A stretch of 41,046 nucleotides of DNA, from the NCBI GenBank assembly GCA_900321255.1, contig ONVK01000007.1:1-41046 (forward strand), read 5' to 3'. Made by a program: the position numbers and the translations under genes. Below are positions 11,974 to 22,555 of this stretch, one piece after another; the first letter of the stretch is position 1; every line of letters begins with the position of its first letter. The stretch is from an uncultured Lentisphaerota bacterium. Its GTDB lineage: Bacteria; Verrucomicrobiota; Kiritimatiellia; RFP12; UBA1067. The notes under the pieces are model-generated. The model had not been told where the DNA came from. It worked only from the letters and a program-made list of their open reading frames with translations, and ran no database searches.

Positions 11974-11991
11974 TTTATACTTTCGTATAAA
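11974..11991. promoter_or_regulatory. Palindromic operator TTTATAC-TTTC-GTATAAA, site 1 of 3
   Basis: A perfect inverted repeat with 7-bp arms and a 4-nt spacer. The GTAT half ends 26 nt before the -10 box of the following gene, so the palindrome centre lies near -44 and it abuts the -35 region. The same element stands at the same place before the genes at 17012 and 20357. This placement is typical of a class II activator. Confidence 0.75.
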
Positions 11992-12011
11992 TGACGGGTT
12001 GGCTCGTCTTA

Positions 12012-12020
12012 TGGTATAAT
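12012..12020 (+). promoter_or_regulatory. Extended -10 promoter TGGTATAAT
   Basis: TGG-TATAAT with a possible weak -35 TGACGG 17 nt upstream. The leader to the ATG at 12061 is about 33 nt and contains an AAGGA ribosome site. Confidence 0.7.
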
Positions 12021-12060
12021 TGCCGAAAAAGAGGACTCTTCACACCAAGGAACGTTCAAT

Positions 12061-13758
12061 ATGACATCAATGCTGCTGCTGGCCGGGATCGTCCGTTTCG
12101 CCGTCCCCGCGACCGGCGAAGGCCAGGTCCTTCCCGATTCGCTTCCACGAGATGCCGTGAAGGACGCGCCGTGCGCGATCGTCGCCGCGAAGGGTGAATA
12201 CGAGGGCGGCTCGTTTGTCCTGAGGTCCGACGCAGATCTCGGCAAGGTCGACATGAAAGTCGGCGACCTCAAGAACGAGAACGGCGACATCTTCCCGGCG
12301 AAGGAACTGGACCTCACGACCGTGAAGGTGTGGTACCAGAACTCCAACGCGTGGACGAGCTACTTCCAGGATCCGCGTCTCAAGCTCTGTCCCGAGCTCC
12401 TTCTCCACGACGAGGACCTCGTGAAGGTCGACACGGAGAAGAAGGGCAACTGGGCGCGCGTCACCGCGAAGGACGGGTCAGTGAGCTACTTCTGGCTCAC
12501 CGCGCCGCGCGGAATCCACAAGCGCAATGTCGACTTCAACGTCGGGCGCATCGACGACGCGTTCCTCTGCATGCAGCCCGGCTTCTCCGACGCGCCTTCG
12601 TTCGCAGGCGCAACGCTCGAGAATGGCAAGAACAAGCAGTTCATGCTGACGGCCCATGTCGGGAAGGACGCGAAGAGCGGGCTGTACGCAGGCACGATCG
12701 CGGTGACCTCGCGCAAGGACGGCGCGCTTCTCCACGAGGTGCCTGTGCGCCTGCGAGTCCTCGACTTCGAGCTACCCGCGCCGAAGACCTACCACGACGC
12801 CGAGAAGGATTTCCTTTCGCTCTTCTGCGAGTACGTGAACATTGAGTGGATCCTCTGCTCGAACGGGAACGACGCCGAGCTCGCGGAGCGCCAGCTCGAG
12901 GCGATTCTCGCCGACTTCGTCCGCCACAACGAGACCACTCCGAGCTTCGGCGAGAGCATCAAGTACAGGGAGATGGCGAGGCGCGTCGGCATGGATTTCA
13001 GGGGCGCATACATGGGGCTCATGAAGCTCGCGGACGACGCGGACGTGCGCTACGCCGCGCGCAACACGGCGCGTTCGCTCGACAGGGCATTCGGCTCGCA
13101 CAGGGGAATGATGCTCTCCTGGGGAGACGAATACGGACTCAAGACCCTGCGCGGGATCCGCTCCATGGTCGAGATATACCACGACGAGGGCTTCACCTTC
13201 GCCGTCAACTCCCAGTCGGGCTACATGGCCGGCGCGAACCTCGCCGACCTCTGGTGGCCGCCGTTTTCGCCCGACCAGCGCACCGCCGCGAAGGTCGCGA
13301 AGTACAACGAGGCCGCGCCGGACGGACGCATGGGGTGGTACGCCTCGCAGCACGTCGGCGCCGAGAATCCCGCCTTCGCGCGCAGGCAGTACGGGATGGG
13401 CCCGTACCTCGCCGGACACGGCTGCAACTACAACTACGCGCACCACCTCCAGGGATGGAACGATGTCGAGATGGGGCTCTACCGCCCGATGAACTTTGTA
13501 TACGGCTCCGGCAACGGCTGCGTCGACACGCTTGCGTGGGAGGGATTCCGCGAGGCGATCGACGACATACGCTACGCGACGCTGCTGAAGACCACTGCGC
13601 TGAGACTGATAAAGGACGGGCCGACGAGGGCACGCTACGCCGCACGTATCGCGCTCAAGCATCTTGCGGACGCGAAAGGCGACGACTTCGACCTCGCGGC
13701 GTTTCGCTACGAGATGATCAACCACATCCAGAAGCTCCTCGCGTTCGAGACGAAGTAA
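12061..13758 (+). CDS. Putative exported DUF4091-type (GH123-like) protein
   Basis: A 565-aa protein. The N-terminal 20 residues are hydrophobic and could be a weak signal peptide. Residues about 20-245 look beta-rich (an Ig-like lead domain ending in VPVRLRVLDFELPAP), and residues about 250-540 look like a TIM barrel. The C-terminal WEGFREAIDDIRYATLL is the hallmark of DUF4091, a domain found in glycoside-hydrolase-like proteins near GH123. MLSWGDEYGL holds an acidic pair that might be catalytic. I infer a role in glycan breakdown; substrate and activity are unknown. It is preceded by operator site 1 and its own promoter, and starts a run with the next two genes (22-bp and 45-bp gaps), so all three are probably one activator-controlled operon. 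Confidence 0.7.
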   Translation: MTSMLLLAGIVRFAVPATGEGQVLPDSLPRDAVKDAPCAIVAAKGEYEGGSFVLRSDADLGKVDMKVGDLKNENGDIFPAKELDLTTVKVWYQNSNAWTSYFQDPRLKLCPELLLHDEDLVKVDTEKKGNWARVTAKDGSVSYFWLTAPRGIHKRNVDFNVGRIDDAFLCMQPGFSDAPSFAGATLENGKNKQFMLTAHVGKDAKSGLYAGTIAVTSRKDGALLHEVPVRLRVLDFELPAPKTYHDAEKDFLSLFCEYVNIEWILCSNGNDAELAERQLEAILADFVRHNETTPSFGESIKYREMARRVGMDFRGAYMGLMKLADDADVRYAARNTARSLDRAFGSHRGMMLSWGDEYGLKTLRGIRSMVEIYHDEGFTFAVNSQSGYMAGANLADLWWPPFSPDQRTAAKVAKYNEAAPDGRMGWYASQHVGAENPAFARRQYGMGPYLAGHGCNYNYAHHLQGWNDVEMGLYRPMNFVYGSGNGCVDTLAWEGFREAIDDIRYATLLKTTALRLIKDGPTRARYAARIALKHLADAKGDDFDLAAFRYEMINHIQKLLAFETK

Positions 13759-13780
13759 TCGAGAGGAAGGAACGAAAGCT

Positions 13781-16033
13781 ATGAAATTCGAATCAACGGT
13801 TTTCAGGTCCCTGCTCTCCGCGGCGGCGCTCGCCGGCGTGTTCGGCGTGCAGGCCTACGCCTCGGTGCAGGACATGCGCAGGGAGATCGATGCGGAAATC
13901 AACGCGCGGCAGAAGGCCAACGCGAGCTATCGCGACATCGTCGGATTCCTCGAAGGGCGCCTTGCATCCGACGATGCGAGGACAAATGCCGCGCTCCGCG
14001 TCCACATCGACAGGAAGATCCTCTCCTTCTGCGCGACGCCCGGTTGGACGAGACTGGGCAGATGGGACAAGGAGTGGGCTGACGGATGTATACCAACCGT
14101 CTGCGAGCGCGAAATCGCAGCTGCGGACTGCCCGCCCGGCGACAAGATCGAATTTCTCCGCGCCCTCGCCCGCCTGCAGGCCGGGAAGAAGGACTACGCG
14201 GCGTCGCTCGCGACCGCCGAGAGGGCTCCGGCGCTCGAGGGGCTCAAGAAAGGTGATGTCTTCAAGGCGCACTGCCTTGTCGCGGACGCCTGCAAATGGG
14301 CCGATCGCTACGAGGATGCGAAGGCCGCGTACCGCAGGGCCGCGGAGACGGATCCCGTCGATGCGGCTAAGGCGCTTGCAAACCTCGCCGTCGACTATTG
14401 CAGCGAAGCGGATGTCGACGCTGCGTGGGCGGCGATCGACGATCCCTATCCCCGGCTTTCGTGGTACTGCGCATCGGGCCGTGCGAAAGAGGTGTCGGAC
14501 GATGCCTTTGCCTATGTCTCCGACGCGGGCAACCCACTGCTGCGCCGCCGCGAAGTGCTGATCCGCTTCTTCGGCGCCGACAAGACCGCTCGCGGCGACC
14601 GTGCGCGGGAGATCGCGCGCGGCATGGACTACTCGGGGTTCTTCGACGGGAAGGTCTTCGGCGAATTTGCAAACGTCTACCGCTTCGGAGACTGGGCGCT
14701 CTTCGCGAAGATCGCCGAGTCGTTCCGGGGGCTCGCCTGGTTCCGGGATCCGGGACGCTATCGCGGCTACCTCTTCTCGCTCGTCGCGACGGGCCGCGGC
14801 GGAGAAGTCGCGAGGAAGGCGGACGAATTCTTCGCGAATGACGCGGCGTCGCAGAAGCCGTCCGTAAAGCCGTTCGACCGCGTCCGCTTCGAGATGCTCA
14901 AGGCGCTTGCCGAGGGGAAGGATCTCGTTCCCGTCGCGAAGGCGGCGAAGCTCGACATAAAGGAGTATGCCCAGGCGCTCCAGATCGCCGCGCAGTGGGC
15001 GCTCAATCTTCAGCGCAACGACGAGTGCGAGCGATACAGCGCGGCATATCGCGCGCTCTTCAGGGAGGTGCCCGAGCGCCGCTACGCCGTAAAGTACTTC
15101 GACAGCCCGGTGAGCTCGATCGCCGCCTGGCGAGGCGTTGCGGATTCGATTGAGAAGTCATACGTCGACGTAAAGATGTGCGGCGAGCTCGACAGCCTCG
15201 AGACGGATGTCGCGACTGGTCGCGCGGAGATCGAGAAGACGGCGCTCGATTCGAAGGACGCGCGCATGGAGGTCTCGCTGTTCTGCGACGTCGAGGGCGT
15301 CAAGATCGTCATGCGCGTCGCCGACGAGAATGCACGCGCCGTCGAGAACGGCTTCGCGGGCGGAATCGGAACGGAATGCTACTTCGCGCCCGGAGCGGGC
15401 GAGCCGTATATCTGCTTCAGCTCCGCGCCGAAGGAGGGCGTCGGCTTTGTCTTCTACACCGCCTATTCGAGCGCGTATTCGCAGCGTCCGGAGTTCGACG
15501 ACGCGAAGAGTCCGTTCTCGCTCCGCCAGGAGACCGCGTTCACGGACGGAGACTATGTGCTCATGGTGACGCTTCCGTGGATTGCCTTCTACCAGAAGCT
15601 CCCCGCCGCGCCCGGTGCGGAATGGCGTTTCGAGTGCCTTGCCGACGGGCATTCCTGGGGCGGCTCGCAGGGCGTGCACGAATCGTCGAGCTGGGGACAT
15701 CTCGTCTTCAACCTTAAGCCGGCGGAGATCGCGGCGATCCGCCGCAGGCTCGTCTACGGCACATGCAAGTCGTGGAGCCGCTCGGGGCACGGGGCTCTCT
15801 CTGAGTTCGACAGATGGGGAGACCCGGTCATGGGCGATCCCGAGTTCTACGAGGCGTGCCTGAAGCCGCTCGAGGCAGGACTCAGGGCGCAGGCGGCGAA
15901 GGTCAGGCCCGACATGAGCGACGACGAGGTCGGCGAGGTGTACGAGAAGGGCGCGAAGGTCTGGATAGGGCTCAGCCACGAGATCGACGCCCTCCGCCGC
16001 GAGTGGTTGCTCAGGAAATACACCGGGATGTAG
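13781..16033 (+). CDS. Exported TPR-like/CBM9-like protein
   Basis: A 750-aa protein with an N-terminal signal peptide (to about residue 27, ending in QAYAS). Residues about 60-430 consist of helical pairs resembling tetratricopeptide repeats (for example DAKAAYRRAAETDPVDAAKALANLA, near 185-210, shown here as a TPR-type motif). Residues about 480-640 resemble a CBM9-like sugar-binding sandwich (AEIEKTALDSKDARMEVSLF, then YVLMVTLPWIAF and SSSWGHLVF). The last 90 residues are helical. Such a layout suggests a periplasmic or surface protein that binds a carbohydrate and a protein partner rather than an enzyme; no catalytic motif is visible. A strong GAGGAAGG ribosome site lies 22 bp after the DUF4091-type gene, so the two are co-transcribed. 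Family assignment is by pattern only. Confidence 0.65.
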   Translation: MKFESTVFRSLLSAAALAGVFGVQAYASVQDMRREIDAEINARQKANASYRDIVGFLEGRLASDDARTNAALRVHIDRKILSFCATPGWTRLGRWDKEWADGCIPTVCEREIAAADCPPGDKIEFLRALARLQAGKKDYAASLATAERAPALEGLKKGDVFKAHCLVADACKWADRYEDAKAAYRRAAETDPVDAAKALANLAVDYCSEADVDAAWAAIDDPYPRLSWYCASGRAKEVSDDAFAYVSDAGNPLLRRREVLIRFFGADKTARGDRAREIARGMDYSGFFDGKVFGEFANVYRFGDWALFAKIAESFRGLAWFRDPGRYRGYLFSLVATGRGGEVARKADEFFANDAASQKPSVKPFDRVRFEMLKALAEGKDLVPVAKAAKLDIKEYAQALQIAAQWALNLQRNDECERYSAAYRALFREVPERRYAVKYFDSPVSSIAAWRGVADSIEKSYVDVKMCGELDSLETDVATGRAEIEKTALDSKDARMEVSLFCDVEGVKIVMRVADENARAVENGFAGGIGTECYFAPGAGEPYICFSSAPKEGVGFVFYTAYSSAYSQRPEFDDAKSPFSLRQETAFTDGDYVLMVTLPWIAFYQKLPAAPGAEWRFECLADGHSWGGSQGVHESSSWGHLVFNLKPAEIAAIRRRLVYGTCKSWSRSGHGALSEFDRWGDPVMGDPEFYEACLKPLEAGLRAQAAKVRPDMSDDEVGEVYEKGAKVWIGLSHEIDALRREWLLRKYTGM

Positions 16034-16078
16034 AGGCAGACGGCGCGGAAACCTGTCTGCGCTATGGGCGACGAAGGC

Positions 16079-16906
16079 ATGAGAAGGGCGGTAAGCGCGT
16101 TTTTTGCGGCGTCTTTCGCCTTTGTCGCCACGTCTGCATCGGCCGAGGACGACGGCTGGGGGCGAGACTACTATGCCGACATCTCGGCGTCGTCGCAGCT
16201 GTTCTCGCTGGGAAGCGTCCGCGCTGACCACTCCGTCTGGATGATGGAGGCGGATTTCGCGCAGCGGCTTTCGGCGTTTGGGCATGTCCTTCTCGGCTAT
16301 TGGTCGTTGAGCGATCTCGGCAGCAGCGGCGACAGGAGCAGGCGGTCGTATGTCTACGAATCGGACCCCAGCCTCTTCTACGGATATGACTGGAACTTCG
16401 CAGACGGGTGGCGGCTGCGGAACAGGATCGGCATGATATGGGTGTTCAACGAAGGATACAACGTGGACGTCACCCACCTCTTCAGGGAATGGACGTACAT
16501 GGGGGAGCTGAAGTCGCCGTTGGTGACGCTGCTTGGACAGGTTCGGGTCGTGGACGGGCTCGGTACGTATGTTCGCATCGGCGCGTTCCGCTCCTTCGAC
16601 ATCGCCGGCGGGATCTTCTCCCTTGCACCGCATCTCTCTCTTCATGGCGGTTCGGGGCGGTGGAACAGGAATCGCTACGGCGACTTCGCCGAAGGCCGGT
16701 CTATTCCGCCGGGCCTTGGCACCGTTGACTACGGAGTGCGGCTGGGCGTTCCGCTCGAGTGGGGGATGAGCTGGTATCTCGATGTCGGCGGATACGACGC
16801 GTTGGATTCGCGGACTCGCACGCAGATACGCGAACGCCGCCGACGCGGATCGACGATGAAGCTCGACGCCTGTTTGGTGACTTCCGGCTTCTGCTGGGAG
16901 TTCTGA
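16079..16906 (+). CDS. Putative outer-membrane beta-barrel protein
   Basis: A 275-aa protein with a clear signal peptide (MRRAVSAFFAASFAFVATSA then SAEDD). The rest shows many short amphipathic strands rich in Tyr, Trp, Phe and Gly (for example GHVLLGYWSL, YVRIGAFRSF, YGVRLGVPLEW) and ends in Phe, the usual C-terminal signature of outer-membrane barrels recognised by the Bam machinery. No enzymatic motif is seen. The start at 16079 is preferred over 16064 because it gives a canonical signal peptide and follows GAAGG, although the spacing is short. It is the last gene of the run begun at 12061 and could be the channel or surface partner of the preceding carbohydrate-binding protein; that link is inference from position. 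Confidence 0.6.
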   Translation: MRRAVSAFFAASFAFVATSASAEDDGWGRDYYADISASSQLFSLGSVRADHSVWMMEADFAQRLSAFGHVLLGYWSLSDLGSSGDRSRRSYVYESDPSLFYGYDWNFADGWRLRNRIGMIWVFNEGYNVDVTHLFREWTYMGELKSPLVTLLGQVRVVDGLGTYVRIGAFRSFDIAGGIFSLAPHLSLHGGSGRWNRNRYGDFAEGRSIPPGLGTVDYGVRLGVPLEWGMSWYLDVGGYDALDSRTRTQIRERRRRGSTMKLDACLVTSGFCWEF

Positions 16907-16922
16907 CGCGCCAGAAACAACG

Positions 16923-16936
16923 ATATACTTTCGTAT
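16923..16936. promoter_or_regulatory. Palindromic operator ATAC-TTTC-GTAT, site 2 of 3
   Basis: The 13-nt core TATACTTTCGTAT is identical to site 1, but the outer right arm has diverged (GTATCC). GTAT ends 25 nt before the -10 box of the gene at 17012. Confidence 0.7.
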
Positions 16937-16958
16937 CCTTGTCTGGCGTGGGCCTGTT

Positions 16959-16967
16959 TGATACAAT
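16959..16967 (+). promoter_or_regulatory. Extended -10 promoter TGATACAAT
   Basis: TGA-TACAAT with TTGTCT as a -35 hexamer 17 nt upstream. The leader to ATG 17012 is about 38 nt and has only a weak GGA ribosome site. Confidence 0.7.
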
Positions 16968-17011
16968 GTTTTCCGTAAACACATCCTTCCCAAAAAGGGC
17001 CAACGGAAAAC

Positions 17012-20000
17012 ATGAAAAGGGCAATTGCTGTCAGTACGATTGCGCTGGTTCTCTCCGTCTTCGGGGACGACCCGTATGTGTACGAATTCGCGCCGGAGGT
17101 CCTGGAGCCGCATTTGCGGGACGCGAGCCAGGCCAAGTTCTTCTGGGCGGCGGACGGCGTCGTGTCCAATGGCGCGACCGCATACTTCCGGTTCAAGTTC
17201 GATCTGGACGACTTGTCAAACGCGACCAAGGACATTTCGCTCTACTACCACCTTGACGACAGGGGAACGGTCTATCTGAACGGGCATCCTCTCAAGCAGC
17301 CTGGAAACTGGTGCTACAACAACAATTGCTTTGTCTTGGGTGAGAACACTATTGCCATTGCGCTCACCAATACAACCTCCGGTTCAGCTGCGATATTCTC
17401 GGTCAAGTGCTTTGACTCGAAAGACTCGAACACCCGTCGGGTCTTGTCGTTCATCCCAAGCGACGCCACGGTCAAGGGTACCGCCAATACCCCGCCGAGC
17501 GGATGGGAGCAGCCGGGCTTCGACGATTCGGCATGGCCAAAGGTCAATGTTATCGGCGACGCCTTCACGGATCCCTGGTACAGCATCAGCTACTTTAACA
17601 TCGACTACTACACGACCCCCGAGGAGCGTGAGCGCTTCGCGAACGGGGACTATGCCGATCCCTCGCTGCCGCCCGGGCTCGAGCAGGAGCCCGATCCCGT
17701 CGCGCGCATCGTGTATCGCGGGTACAGCCCGTTCGTCGAGATCAACGGCCGGCTCCACGCGCCCGATTTCAATATCTGCCAGGCCGGCGACTACTACAAC
17801 GAAAGCGCGATCGTCCGGCTGGCGCGGGAGGGGTTCGACATCGTCCAGCTCAACTTCCTTGCCGAATCATTCTGCAAAAGCGACGGGTCCTACGACTTCT
17901 CGAAAATCGACGACATGGTGCGGCGGGTCCTTGAGATCAACCCGGACGCATATGTGGCCATCTCGCCGCGCTTCATGATGCAGTTCTGGATCCAGACCAA
18001 CATGACCGAGCGCGTCGGCTACGAGACCGGCGACCCGGACGTGAACGCCGGCGACGAGTTCCGGATGCGCGTGTTGCGTCCCTCGCCCGCAAGCGACAGC
18101 TTCCGCGCGCTGGTGGTCGACATGATCAAGAAGCTCGGCGAATACGTCGAGACGAAGCCGTGGCGGAAGCGGCTCGTCTGCTTCCGCCTGAGCTACGGCA
18201 CCTATACCGAATGGTGCTATTTCGGGATGTACGAAGGACCAGACAACGGGCCGCGGATGCAGGAGAAGTTCCGCGCCTATATGAAGGCGAAGAGAAACGT
18301 CGACAACGCGGCTATTCCGCCGCTCGCGGCGCGGAAGCACGAATTCGGAGGCAGCGCCGACCCGAACAAGAACGGTGATCTCCTCGACCCCGCCGAGGAC
18401 CAGCTCGTCCTCGACTACTACGACTGCCTCATCAACACGATGGCCGATTTCCTCCTCGAGATGGCGGATGCGGCGAAGCAGGCGTTCCCGGGACGTCTTG
18501 TCGGCGCCTACTACGGCTACCTCTACGACGACCATCCGCCGGAAGGGGCGACCTCGCTCCTCGACAAGGTGCTCTCAAGCCCGAACGTCGACATCCTCTC
18601 GTGCCCCGCGTACTACAGCAAGGACGGGCGCCGCGCAGGCGGCAGCTATGTGACGCGGACGATTCCGTCGCTCTTCCGCCGCTACGGCAAGCTCGCGCTT
18701 CTCGAGGACGACAGCCGTTTCCACCACATCCGCGACTGGCTTCAGAGCCAGAACGACGGGCAGGGCATGTGCACCGAGACGCCGCACGAGACGGAGATGT
18801 GCATGCGCCGCAACATGCTCAATCCATTCTTCGACGGCGGCGGCATCCAGCTCAACGATCCGATCACGCAGTCCGGATCGCGTCCGCACGCCTTCGACGA
18901 CCCTGCCGTGTTCCGTGCGATAACGGACACGCGCGCCGCGCTCGCGAAGGCGGGAGTCGCGGCGTCGGAGTCCGGCAACGAGGTCGCGGTCGTGTTCAGC
19001 ACGCGTGAGGCCATTCGCCGAGACGGCGGCAAGTGCTCGTACTTCACGTGGAACCTCTACCAGACCTCGCTCCTCTACCTGAACCGCTCCGGAATTCCGT
19101 TCGACCTCCTGTCTCTCGAGGACTATATCGACAACCCCCGCGACTACAAGGTCGTCATGTTCCTTAACGCATTTTATCTTACGCCCGACGAACGCAGAGC
19201 GCTTGTTCAGAGGACACGCAGGCCTGGCATGACGGCGATCTGGATCGGTCCCGCGGGCGGCGTGACGGACAACGGTTTCGACGACGCGGCGATGTCGGCG
19301 CTCACTGGCGTTACCGCGACCGGCGTCGCGCGCCGCTCGAAAATCGTCTGCCGGGATTCTGACGCGACAGAATACAATTTTCTACTTGGCAGTTCCAGGT
19401 ACTACTATTATGCGAAGACGCTCGCGGACGGAGCGCGCGGTATTATCGTGCCCGAGATGCCGGCGGGATCCAATGGGGCTGACGGCAGACTGTATGCGGC
19501 GATTCTGAAGGAAGCCGGAACTCATCAGTATGTGGCACCGGGAAGCTACATCCGCCGTCACGGCGACGTATATATGTACCACACGGGAACGAACGGAACA
19601 CACACGATCACGCTGCCTGACAACGTCGTGAAGGTCCGCGAGCTCTTCACCGGCACGGAATACAACTCAAACGTGATCACGTTGCAATCCGACGGGCCCA
19701 ACACGTGGCTCTTCCGCGCGGCGACAGCGGGCATCTGGCCGGTTGGCGACGACGTCATAGCGGCGCTGAATGCAGACGGAACACTTTCCATTGACGGAAC
19801 GGGAGCGATGGATGATTTCGCCACTGCGGCGGATCTGCCGTGGGATCCCTCGGCGGTCAAGAGCGTGACGATTGGCGACGGCGTGGTTGTCGGAGAGAAT
19901 GCGCTGGCGGGACTTCCCGACTCGGCGACGGTGAATGGCATGAACGTTGGACAGTACAGAAAGCTCTTCGGCGGGCTCGGGATGTCCGGTGTTCCCGAAG

Positions 20001-20248
20001 GATCGGTTGTCGTCTCGCGCACCGAGCTCGAGGCCGCGCAGGCGGCGACGCTTGAAATCGCCGACGGAACCGCGATTCTCGGCATCAGCGTCTGCACTAA
20101 CGGAGATCTCACGGCAGCGACTTCTTCCTGGGCTCCAGTCGCGTTTCGCAAGTCCGATCTCGAAGTCAGCGCAGACGGGACGAAGATCATCGCGCCAATC
20201 CCGGCCAATGCCGAGAAGGGCTTCATGATTCTGCGCTCGGGAGACTGA
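17012..20248 (+). CDS. Large exported glycosidase-like protein with BspA-type C-terminal module
   Basis: A 1078-aa protein starting with a signal peptide (MKRAIAVSTIALVLSVFG). Residues about 20-190 form a galactose-binding-like beta sandwich (YYHLDDRGTVYLNGHPL; W-QPGFDDSAWPK). Residues about 235-680 look like a (beta/alpha)8 barrel of the GH-A clan, most like GH42-type beta-galactosidases, with candidate acidic residues in SYGTYTEW and LLEDDSRFHH. Residues about 690-900 resemble the class-I glutaminase-like and beta domains that follow such barrels. Residues about 905-970 (NADGTLSIDGTGAMDDF, PWDPSAVKSVTIGDGVV, ENALAGLP) match the opening of BspA-type leucine-rich repeat modules, which often mediate surface attachment. 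No specific GH family can be assigned with confidence. It is monocistronic, under operator site 2. Confidence 0.7.
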   Translation: MKRAIAVSTIALVLSVFGDDPYVYEFAPEVLEPHLRDASQAKFFWAADGVVSNGATAYFRFKFDLDDLSNATKDISLYYHLDDRGTVYLNGHPLKQPGNWCYNNNCFVLGENTIAIALTNTTSGSAAIFSVKCFDSKDSNTRRVLSFIPSDATVKGTANTPPSGWEQPGFDDSAWPKVNVIGDAFTDPWYSISYFNIDYYTTPEERERFANGDYADPSLPPGLEQEPDPVARIVYRGYSPFVEINGRLHAPDFNICQAGDYYNESAIVRLAREGFDIVQLNFLAESFCKSDGSYDFSKIDDMVRRVLEINPDAYVAISPRFMMQFWIQTNMTERVGYETGDPDVNAGDEFRMRVLRPSPASDSFRALVVDMIKKLGEYVETKPWRKRLVCFRLSYGTYTEWCYFGMYEGPDNGPRMQEKFRAYMKAKRNVDNAAIPPLAARKHEFGGSADPNKNGDLLDPAEDQLVLDYYDCLINTMADFLLEMADAAKQAFPGRLVGAYYGYLYDDHPPEGATSLLDKVLSSPNVDILSCPAYYSKDGRRAGGSYVTRTIPSLFRRYGKLALLEDDSRFHHIRDWLQSQNDGQGMCTETPHETEMCMRRNMLNPFFDGGGIQLNDPITQSGSRPHAFDDPAVFRAITDTRAALAKAGVAASESGNEVAVVFSTREAIRRDGGKCSYFTWNLYQTSLLYLNRSGIPFDLLSLEDYIDNPRDYKVVMFLNAFYLTPDERRALVQRTRRPGMTAIWIGPAGGVTDNGFDDAAMSALTGVTATGVARRSKIVCRDSDATEYNFLLGSSRYYYYAKTLADGARGIIVPEMPAGSNGADGRLYAAILKEAGTHQYVAPGSYIRRHGDVYMYHTGTNGTHTITLPDNVVKVRELFTGTEYNSNVITLQSDGPNTWLFRAATAGIWPVGDDVIAALNADGTLSIDGTGAMDDFATAADLPWDPSAVKSVTIGDGVVVGENALAGLPDSATVNGMNVGQYRKLFGGLGMSGVPEGSVVVSRTELEAAQAATLEIADGTAILGISVCTNGDLTAATSSWAPVAFRKSDLEVSADGTKIIAPIPANAEKGFMILRSGD

Positions 20249-20303
20249 TTTCGTGTGCGGTTGCATTGCTGTCGGTTTCTGAGGCAGCGGTGAATTGCGG
20301 TGC

Positions 20304-20319
20304 CTATACTTCTGTATAG
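20304..20319. promoter_or_regulatory. Palindromic operator CTATAC-TTCT-GTATAG, site 3 of 3
   Basis: Perfect 6-bp arms with a 4-nt spacer. GTAT ends 25 nt before the -10 box at 20343, the same phasing as site 2 and 1 nt less than site 1. Confidence 0.75.
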
Positions 20320-20339
20320 TTGCTTGAAGGCGGTCCGTT

Positions 20340-20348
20340 TGCTACAAT
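20340..20348 (+). promoter_or_regulatory. Extended -10 promoter TGCTACAAT
   Basis: TGC-TACAAT with a good -35 TTGCTT 17 nt upstream. The box ends 8 nt before ATG 20357, predicting a leader of only 1-3 nt. Confidence 0.7.
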
Positions 20349-20356
20349 AGCACCAA

Positions 20357-22555
20357 ATGAAAAGATGTTCTTATGGTATGATTGTTGCCGCCGCGTGCGC
20401 GGTGACCTGGGGAATCGCCGGAACTGCCTGTGGCGGAGAGGACGCGAGGGTCGCGTCCGATACGCCCGAAAAGGCGCTGACCATGGAGGAGATAGTCTCT
20501 GCTCCGCGGCGCAGTACCGTCAAGACGGAGCTGCCCGGTGATGCCGGCATGTACATTGCGTCCGGCGTCTATGCAAACAGGGGCGTCATGAGGATGGGCG
20601 GCTTCTGCTTTACATACTGGGAGCCCGAGAAGCTGAACTATGACGAGCTTATCGACCTCTGCGTGAAAGAAGGCGTAGGCAACACGCTCCAGTTCTGGCA
20701 GAGCAACGAGTGTCTTCTGAATCTTGCGCGCAAGGCGAAGTCGCGCGGGCTCTACTCGACGTGCATATATTCGGCCGCGACCAACGGGCTCGCTCGCGAG
20801 ATTACGTCGGGTCTTGGCGGATCCTGGATAGGCTACGACTTCGGCGAGAGGTTTACGTTCTCGCTCTACACCGACTGGGGAGACCGCGGCGCGTCGCTGC
20901 GCGCCATCGCCGAGGAGTACATGAACCGCGTCCACAAGCATGTCGGCGATCTCCATGCAGCGGGATGGGGCGACGTGATGGCCACCTCGTCGAACTTCTC
21001 GCTAGACTACGAGGTTGCCGCCGGCGCGGAGATTCCCTGCACAGAGGACTTCCCGTTCGGCGACCTTACTCTCGCATCGGCGCTGAACCGCGGGCTGTAC
21101 CGGCAGTACAACCTTCCGATGTGGGGCTCGCACCTCGCGCACGAGTGGTACAGCTGGATTCCGCACAGAAACCCCTATAAGATGAAGACCCTCGAAACGG
21201 CGTTTCTCCTCAAATACATGACAGGCGCTAAGGTGATCGTCAACGAGAGCGGCAACTGGCAGCTCCAGAGCTCGCTATGCGAGGACTCCCCGATGTCGCA
21301 GTTGCCGACGCCTGTGCGCAAGCTCGCTTCGGGGCTCACCTCCGAGGAACTGAAGGCGGCCGAGAAGTCGGTCTATCCCGAGGCGAAGAAGAAGTTTTCG
21401 TACATCGACTACCGTTCGCCCGTCGCGCGCAAGTACCGCAGGGCCATCAGCGACTTCACGGCGTTCTGCCGCGAGCATCCGGCGCCGAAGGGCCAGCCCG
21501 AGGCGACATGGGCGATCGCGAAGGGCAGCTTCGATCTCGGCGGGCCTAGCTATGTCCCCGGCAACGCCATCTGCCTCGCGTACGACCTTGCGCGGAAGAA
21601 CCCGAACTGGATGTACGGCATTCCCGAGATGAGCTGGGACGTCGTCAGGAAGGCGGTAATGCCGATGCCTCCGATGCTCGCCCCGAACAAGAACATCCAC
21701 TTCTCCGCCTCGCCATACGGCCTCTGCGACATTGTCTCGTTCGCGTGCGACAACGTGACGGCGGAGCACCTCCTCAAAAACTACAAGGTCCTCATGTTCG
21801 CGGGCTGGAACACCTGCTCTCCGAAGCAGTACAGGATACTCTGCGACTACGTGAAGGGCGGCGGGAAGCTCGTGATCGGCCTCGCCCACCTTTCGACGGA
21901 CGACAGGCGCGAATACACGGACAATTCGGTTGGCAAGCTCGTCAACGGCGGCGACTTCACCGAGCTCTGCGGCTTCAAGGTGACCGGCGAGACCCAGCGC
22001 AAGTACTGGGCGACCGGCCCCTCGAAGGAGCGCAACTGCCTCGGCTTTGCCGCGCGCCGCCGCTTCGGCTACATGTGCCTGCCCCTCGGCAGACTCGAGT
22101 TCACCGCGCCAGCGGAGAACTTCGAGGAGCTCGCGGTTGACGACGAAGACGCCGAGCCGTTTATCCTCCGCTGCAGGAACGGAAAAGGCGAGGTGTTCTT
22201 CATGAACTGGTGGGCCTATCCCGCCGCGGCCAACATGGATGTCGGCTGCGGCTCCGAGATAGAGGACGTCGGCATGGTCGGCTATCTCTACCAGTATGCG
22301 GCGAAGCTCGGACGCGGGAACGTCTTCATCACCGGCCGCGACTTCGAGAACCCCGACGAGGACTGCGGCTGGATACTCTACTCCTACTTCCCCGACGAAG
22401 GCAAGGTCTATCTCCTCAACCTCGACTACGGGCGCGAGCGCAGTTTCGTCCTCCAGCAGTTCGGCGACAAGGACTTCGTCACGCTAAAGCCGGGCGAGTT
22501 CCGCATCGTCGAGTCGGTAAAGCTCGACGCAGACGAGAAGCTTAACGCGGAATAG
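20357..22555 (+). CDS. Exported protein, probable glycoside hydrolase-like
   Basis: A 732-aa protein. The N-terminus is hydrophobic (MIVAAACAVTWGIAGTAC) and GTAC could be a lipobox, so it is exported and perhaps lipid-anchored. Residues about 65-430 look like an alpha/beta barrel (GFCFTYWEPEKLNYDELIDLC near the start, then DLHAAGWGDVMATSS and VIVNESGNWQ). Residues about 470-570 (LLKNYKVLMFAGWNT, LCDYVKGGGKLVIGLAHLS) resemble the glutaminase-like domain that follows barrels in GH42-related proteins, and the C-terminus looks like a beta sandwich. This architecture suggests a glycosidase, but no family signature or catalytic pair can be assigned. Operator site 3 and the leaderless-type promoter fix the start. 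Rhamnulokinase follows from its own promoter. Confidence 0.65.
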   Translation: MKRCSYGMIVAAACAVTWGIAGTACGGEDARVASDTPEKALTMEEIVSAPRRSTVKTELPGDAGMYIASGVYANRGVMRMGGFCFTYWEPEKLNYDELIDLCVKEGVGNTLQFWQSNECLLNLARKAKSRGLYSTCIYSAATNGLAREITSGLGGSWIGYDFGERFTFSLYTDWGDRGASLRAIAEEYMNRVHKHVGDLHAAGWGDVMATSSNFSLDYEVAAGAEIPCTEDFPFGDLTLASALNRGLYRQYNLPMWGSHLAHEWYSWIPHRNPYKMKTLETAFLLKYMTGAKVIVNESGNWQLQSSLCEDSPMSQLPTPVRKLASGLTSEELKAAEKSVYPEAKKKFSYIDYRSPVARKYRRAISDFTAFCREHPAPKGQPEATWAIAKGSFDLGGPSYVPGNAICLAYDLARKNPNWMYGIPEMSWDVVRKAVMPMPPMLAPNKNIHFSASPYGLCDIVSFACDNVTAEHLLKNYKVLMFAGWNTCSPKQYRILCDYVKGGGKLVIGLAHLSTDDRREYTDNSVGKLVNGGDFTELCGFKVTGETQRKYWATGPSKERNCLGFAARRRFGYMCLPLGRLEFTAPAENFEELAVDDEDAEPFILRCRNGKGEVFFMNWWAYPAAANMDVGCGSEIEDVGMVGYLYQYAAKLGRGNVFITGRDFENPDEDCGWILYSYFPDEGKVYLLNLDYGRERSFVLQQFGDKDFVTLKPGEFRIVESVKLDADEKLNAE

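Follow-up and report, generated by a model that had tools for sequence, protein, structure and literature searches.

Three promoters in the window, meaning the whole 41,046-nt stretch analysed here, carry one and the same short palindrome beside their -35 region, which raises the question of what protein reads it and which genes it serves. Direct reading of the letters at 11974-11991, 16924-16937 and 20305-20318 returned the sequences reported in the first-pass annotation, with gaps of 26, 25 and 25 nt between GTAT and the -10 box. No site of the window other than these three matched with one mismatch or fewer; at up to two mismatches, 5 matches were obtained versus 1.56 in shuffled sequences. 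A search of the window for Rfam RNA families and tRNAs found none. The three promoters (Table 1) probably share this 14-base palindrome as members of one regulon.

Table 1. Promoter elements and genes at the three palindrome sites of the window.
Feature	Position	Strand	Remark
Putative operator 1, TATACTTTCGTATA	11976..11989 (18 bp with flanks, 11974-11991)	+	Centre 32 nt before -10 (about -44)
Possible -35 of promoter 1, ATGACG	11991..11996	+	18-nt spacer; read from sequence
-10 box of promoter 1, TATAAT	12015..12020	+	Extended (TGG)
First gene of operon 1, 565 aa	12061..13758	+	Weak Pfam match to GH123 N-terminal domain, E 0.004
Second gene of probable operon, 750 aa	13781..16033	+	22 nt downstream of first gene; no confident family
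Third gene of probable operon, 280 aa	16064..16906	+	30 nt downstream of second gene; no family
Putative operator 2, TATACTTTCGTATC	16924..16937	+	One mismatch; centre 31 nt before -10
-35 of promoter 2, TTGTCT	16939..16944	+	17-nt spacer; read from sequence
-10 box of promoter 2, TACAAT	16962..16967	+	Extended (TGA)
Predicted exported protein, 1078 aa	17012..20248	+	N-terminal part resembles alpha-L-rhamnosidase
Putative operator 3, TATACTTCTGTATA	20305..20318	+	Centre 31 nt before -10
-35 of promoter 3, TTGCTT	20320..20325	+	17-nt spacer; read from sequence
-10 box of promoter 3, TACAAT	20343..20348	+	Extended (TGC)
Predicted exported protein, 732 aa	20357..22555	+	No confident family

Family and structure searches of the window proteins gained little, and two of the three first genes had no family. 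The product of the first gene of operon 1 begins with a hydrophobic N-terminus, with no basic residue ahead of the hydrophobic part, and its orthologue in the relative G008 (L282) has the same promoter. At promoter 3 the start codon lies 8 nt past the -10 box (20343-20357), so the transcript is possibly leaderless; in the G011 orthologue of this gene, the gap between the -10 box and the start codon is 33 nt.

The window's own genome (G000; 2,776,193 bp) was scanned for TATAC-N4-GTATA. The results revealed 8 exact copies, compared to about 0.54 expected for independent bases and 0 for the reversed control. Seven of the eight, together with the window site at 16924, had TANNNT 22-29 nt downstream (control, 0), and in the phased sites the palindrome stood 24-26 nt before the -10 box. 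The promoter at C104:87338 has GATAC as its left arm and the same spacing. The eighth exact copy is a second palindrome 24 bp upstream of another C104 site, and this pair (G000:C104:103026 and 103050; L018:7027-7064) has a single promoter behind it. With one mismatch allowed, the bare palindrome was no commoner in this genome than the reversed control, indicating that the signal depends on exact arms or on promoter context and position; when the pattern was narrowed by a fixed TTG ahead of the -10 box, only two sites were found. The excess over chance and the fixed spacing showed that the motif is not scattered at random, in line with the first-pass annotation, and its proposal of a small dedicated regulon agrees with 8 phased sites here and up to 17 pattern hits in one relative. 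The common phasing expected of a genome scan was recovered; the sites were not confined to genes of glycoside-hydrolase type.

The palindrome-plus-promoter pattern was then searched in 96 related genomes, in which it was concentrated in a subset of the genus. Those relatives that carry a name are metagenome assemblies of Kiritimatiellae, Verrucomicrobia or Lentisphaerae, and several come from ruminant or horse gut. We collected 52 sites, whose spacers of 23-26 nt were constrained by the search pattern itself, and an extended -10 box, chosen by score, was present in 47 of them. Two classes were distinguished: class A (37/52; TATACttt.GTATAatTg) with spacers mostly of 25-26 nt, and class B (15/52), mostly GTATATTCC, with spacers mostly of 24 nt and an extended -10 box in 15/15. 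In the own genome, a well-formed class A promoter at C104:105929 (L018:9930-10230) has nothing behind it but a short open frame (about 56 residues) that may be a gene remnant.

Nearly all 52 sites had a long open reading frame downstream, as called by a simple script, and the products were mostly large. By a crude signal-peptide measure, a hydrophobic, basic N-terminus was significantly more frequent among the targets (39/52) than among other genes (22/67; P = 4e-6). Of 35 targets scanned, several were carbohydrate-active and many had no family; the families found were GH31 (with an adjoining GH97 gene), GH106, GH39, phosphodiester glycosidase, pectate-lyase-like folds and LamG. The earlier description of the controlled genes as exported and glycan-related therefore stands for export, and for glycan functions it fits many regulon members and is weak for the three window genes. 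Export has an exception in G008, where a class A site (L278:202-1095) stands before the gene of a ROK-type sugar kinase that has no signal peptide.

A candidate regulator came from the promoters of its own genes. In G050, G001, G008 and G055, the palindrome precedes a two-gene unit whose products are about 707 and 207 residues long. The longer one is a HisKA_3 histidine kinase (PF07730 in P0001) with an exported N-terminal region, and the shorter one is a receiver-GerE response regulator (PF00072 and PF00196 in P0002), hereafter RR-A, for which NarL was among the top NCBIfam models, under the model cut-off. The two genes are adjacent and overlapping (for example, L085 6535-8652 and 8649-9275). 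The palindrome or a near variant was present in the RR-A kinase promoters of G050 (two pairs), G055, G001, G008, G014 and G011. In G050, G055, G014 and G011, these promoters carry two palindromes 22 bp apart. The sensor region (L140:4073-5320) was modelled at pLDDT 86 as tandem beta-barrels. These matched OB-fold proteins with overall TM-scores of only about 0.2, which suggests no more than the fold of single domains; if the model is correct, tandem OB folds would make this an unusual exported sensor.

RR-A, defined by a score of over 280 bits, was found in 11 of the 96 genomes. The motif occurred in 8/11 genomes with RR-A versus 4/85 others (P = 5e-7; P = 4e-4 with uncurated hits). The three RR-A genomes with no exact-pattern hit were G014, G060 and G083, and variants were seen in G014 and G060. 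The orthologues of the window gene at 20357-22555 followed the same division: the palindrome was kept in G008 and G011 and drifted (TATCCCTTCGTGTA) in G060, all RR-A-positive, and it was absent from G010 and G026, both RR-A-negative. The distance from these orthologues to the RR-A genes is about 10 kb in G011 and G060. In the own genome, response-regulator searches matched contigs other than that of the window, which agrees with the earlier suggestion that the regulator lies outside it. The candidate there is a single orphan RR-A gene, G000:C104:95798-96403, aligning to the RR-A model over positions 3-204 of 206 and located about 7-10 kb from palindrome sites on both sides. Its partner kinase was not found, and no family kinase lies beside it; the complete kinase-regulator pair of the close relative G055 was absent from this assembly, which is 88% complete. 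Based on these sequence comparisons, we propose, with a probability of about 0.8, that TATAC-N4-GTATA is the operator of the NarL/LuxR-type regulator RR-A and that RR-A activates mostly exported, often sugar-active targets.

Four genomes carried the motif in the absence of a subfamily-A regulator (G045, G048, G056 and G004). For G045, the explanation is a second response regulator, RR-B. RR-B lies near class B promoters (L087:6679-7281, L298, L299 and L300). It may be that two regulators share the same core, RR-A reading the GTATAATTG promoters and RR-B the GTATATTCC promoters (for example, at G000:C96), a division to which we give even odds and which extends the RR-A explanation rather than replacing it. 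At an identity of at least 75%, RR-B was present in G045, G050, G055 and G085; class B sites were found in 4/4 of these genomes, in each case with one on the contig of the RR-B gene, and the spacer difference between the classes points the same way. Against the division, RR-B was not found at that identity in the own-genome assembly, where a single class B site occurs (C96).

RR-A belongs to a larger family, with more than 100 related kinase and regulator genes in the genus and one neighbouring family. We read the 330 bases upstream of 40 kinases, and 55 kinase promoters were then scored by script. Palindromes with at least 6 of 7 pairs were present in 28/55 family kinase promoters, some of them by chance, compared to 2/41 control promoters (P = 5e-7). 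Their sequences differed between regulator types across the paralogous pairs, and their centres lay mostly 30-34, 42-43 and 52-53 nt from the -10 box. For 21 representative palindromes, placement deviated significantly from uniform (Rayleigh R 0.82, P = 5e-5); the paralogous palindromes, with centres near 32, 42.5 or 52.5 nt before the -10 box, sit on one helix face at steps of about 10.5 bp. The palindrome scoring, the distance range (28-56 nt), the 280-bit cut-off and the motif hits counted were all set after seeing the data, which makes the P values optimistic, and the genomes and sites entering the statistics are related to one another.

This placement bears on the direction of control. 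RR-A could bind the same site as a repressor, blocking RNA polymerase from beside the -35 hexamer. The palindrome does abut the -35 hexamer, and TTG is present there in 25/37 class A promoters (17- or 18-nt spacer), most of them with an extended -10 box, so that most class A promoters could fire unaided. However, only 1/15 class B promoters had a TTG -35, and class B promoters would need an activator. Moreover, an activator touching RNA polymerase requires one-face phasing, which a steric repressor does not, and paralogous sites stepping out to 53 nt from the -10 box suit activation. We consider repression unlikely. The class II activator geometry proposed in the first pass is thereby supported indirectly, and the regulon sites show the placement expected of such promoters, namely a site next to the -35 hexamer, a fixed helical phase and a centre 31-32 nt before the -10 box.

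Palindrome similarity was further compared with the identity of the recognition helix across the paralogues. The correlation was modest (r 0.25, Mantel P = 0.0016) and peaked at helix column 8 (r 0.41, P = 0.001), the aligned position of V189 in NarL, a residue that contacts bases. The receiver domain also correlated with the palindrome (partial P = 0.025 for the helix and 0.09 for the receiver), indicating that shared descent explains part of the association. In G004, a more distant regulator on C42, outside subfamily A, carries the same ITVKKQ stretch in its helix, and a TATACCAAAGTATA site lies upstream of it; this look-alike helix explains the motif in that genome. The palindrome CTACAC-N4-GTGTAG, derived from the kinase promoters of regulators with an ENTVRKA helix, was then searched in the 96 genomes, a prediction able to fail. 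It occurred in only 5/96 (G008, G060, G085, G083 and G056), including all three genomes in which an ENTVRKA-helix regulator had been read (G008, G060 and G085). At many of its sites the centre lay 30-32 nt from an extended -10 box, and the gene downstream encoded an exported protein. Loci of this putative second, private regulon include L236, L241 and L244 (G008:C193), L238 and L242 (G060:C2), and L239, L243 and L245 (G085). A third palindrome, CCTCCA-NN-TGGAGG with a downstream -10 box, occurred at kinase promoters belonging to the family itself in G000, G008, G014 and G040, with additional matches at one G050 locus and as lone hits in G066 and G091; a wider regulon for it was rejected, since its matches lie mainly at its own kinase promoters.

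These comparisons also bear on whether a regulator of another helix-turn-helix family binds the palindrome, the two-component genes being merely among its targets. The own-genome RR-A is an orphan, and in G048 and G056 the motif was present with neither RR-A nor a close RR-B found, as such a reading would allow. However, three observations speak against it: helix and operator are associated across the paralogues, G004 has a look-alike helix, and a second palindrome follows its own regulator type. We regard this reading, too, as unlikely. Spread of one promoter cassette by duplication, with no regulation, is scarcely credible: several promoters are alike from the palindrome through the -10 box, but palindrome and spacing stay while spacer letters and flanks vary among paralogous sites, and paralogous systems with other palindromes retain the spacing.

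For activation by RR-A, the computed results (the sites and their spacing, the kinase promoters, the co-occurrence of motif and regulator, the association of helix and operator, and the kinds of target) suggest the following scheme. The HisKA_3 kinase would respond to a signal that may be a product of glycan breakdown. Once phosphorylated, RR-A would form a dimer on the palindrome, centred near -44 and immediately before the -35 hexamer. By touching RNA polymerase it would then switch on the extended -10 promoters of proteins that are mostly exported and in many cases sugar-active. This role would fall in the own genome to the orphan RR-A, possibly along with a kinase-regulator pair missing from the incomplete assembly. 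RR-A would belong to a paralogous family spread over the genus, whose recognition helices and operators have co-diverged and whose members each appear to control a separate set of mostly exported, often sugar-degrading proteins. More broadly, we think it fairly probable that gut Kiritimatiellae possess a large NarL-type paralogous family of glycan regulators, in which each helix has co-diverged with a private palindrome, the operator keeps to a constant helix face, and the operator of an unseen member could be predicted from its helix. If right, this would provide a regulatory map for an uncultured gut lineage, tie unknown exported proteins to shared control, and offer a natural series of related regulators and operators for studying how NarL-type helices read DNA.

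Our literature search, incomplete in coverage, found no such regulon described in this lineage. In gut bacteria, the hybrid two-component systems of Bacteroides form a large class regulating glycan genes, with kinase and regulator in one protein (PMC11253607). Here they are encoded by two adjacent, overlapping genes and the DNA-binding domain is of the GerE/LuxR type, unlike in the Bacteroides hybrids, and identity with the hybrid type was rejected. In Pontiella agarivorans, a related anaerobe, PF07730, PF02518 and PF00072 genes lie near glycoside hydrolases and sulfatases (PMC10880615); these include the same Pfam kinase domains, and the relevant passages of that report note proximity alone and describe no operator or regulon. 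The NarX/NarQ-NarL/NarP systems of Escherichia coli (NarL/FixJ family) likewise combine a HisKA_3 kinase with a receiver-GerE regulator. NarL also uses inverted half-sites of similar geometry (test site TACCCCTAAAGGGGTA (PMC4549865) versus TTATACTAAAGTATAA in G001). Its activation of napF is reported to proceed from a site of 7-2-7 type at -40 to -49 (PMC4549865), about the same place as the palindrome here, whose length and centre agree by inspection with a 7-2-7 inverted repeat. Unlike the NarL system, the one described here has another half-site sequence, a sensor modelled as tandem OB folds, mostly exported targets, and many paralogues with separate putative operators.
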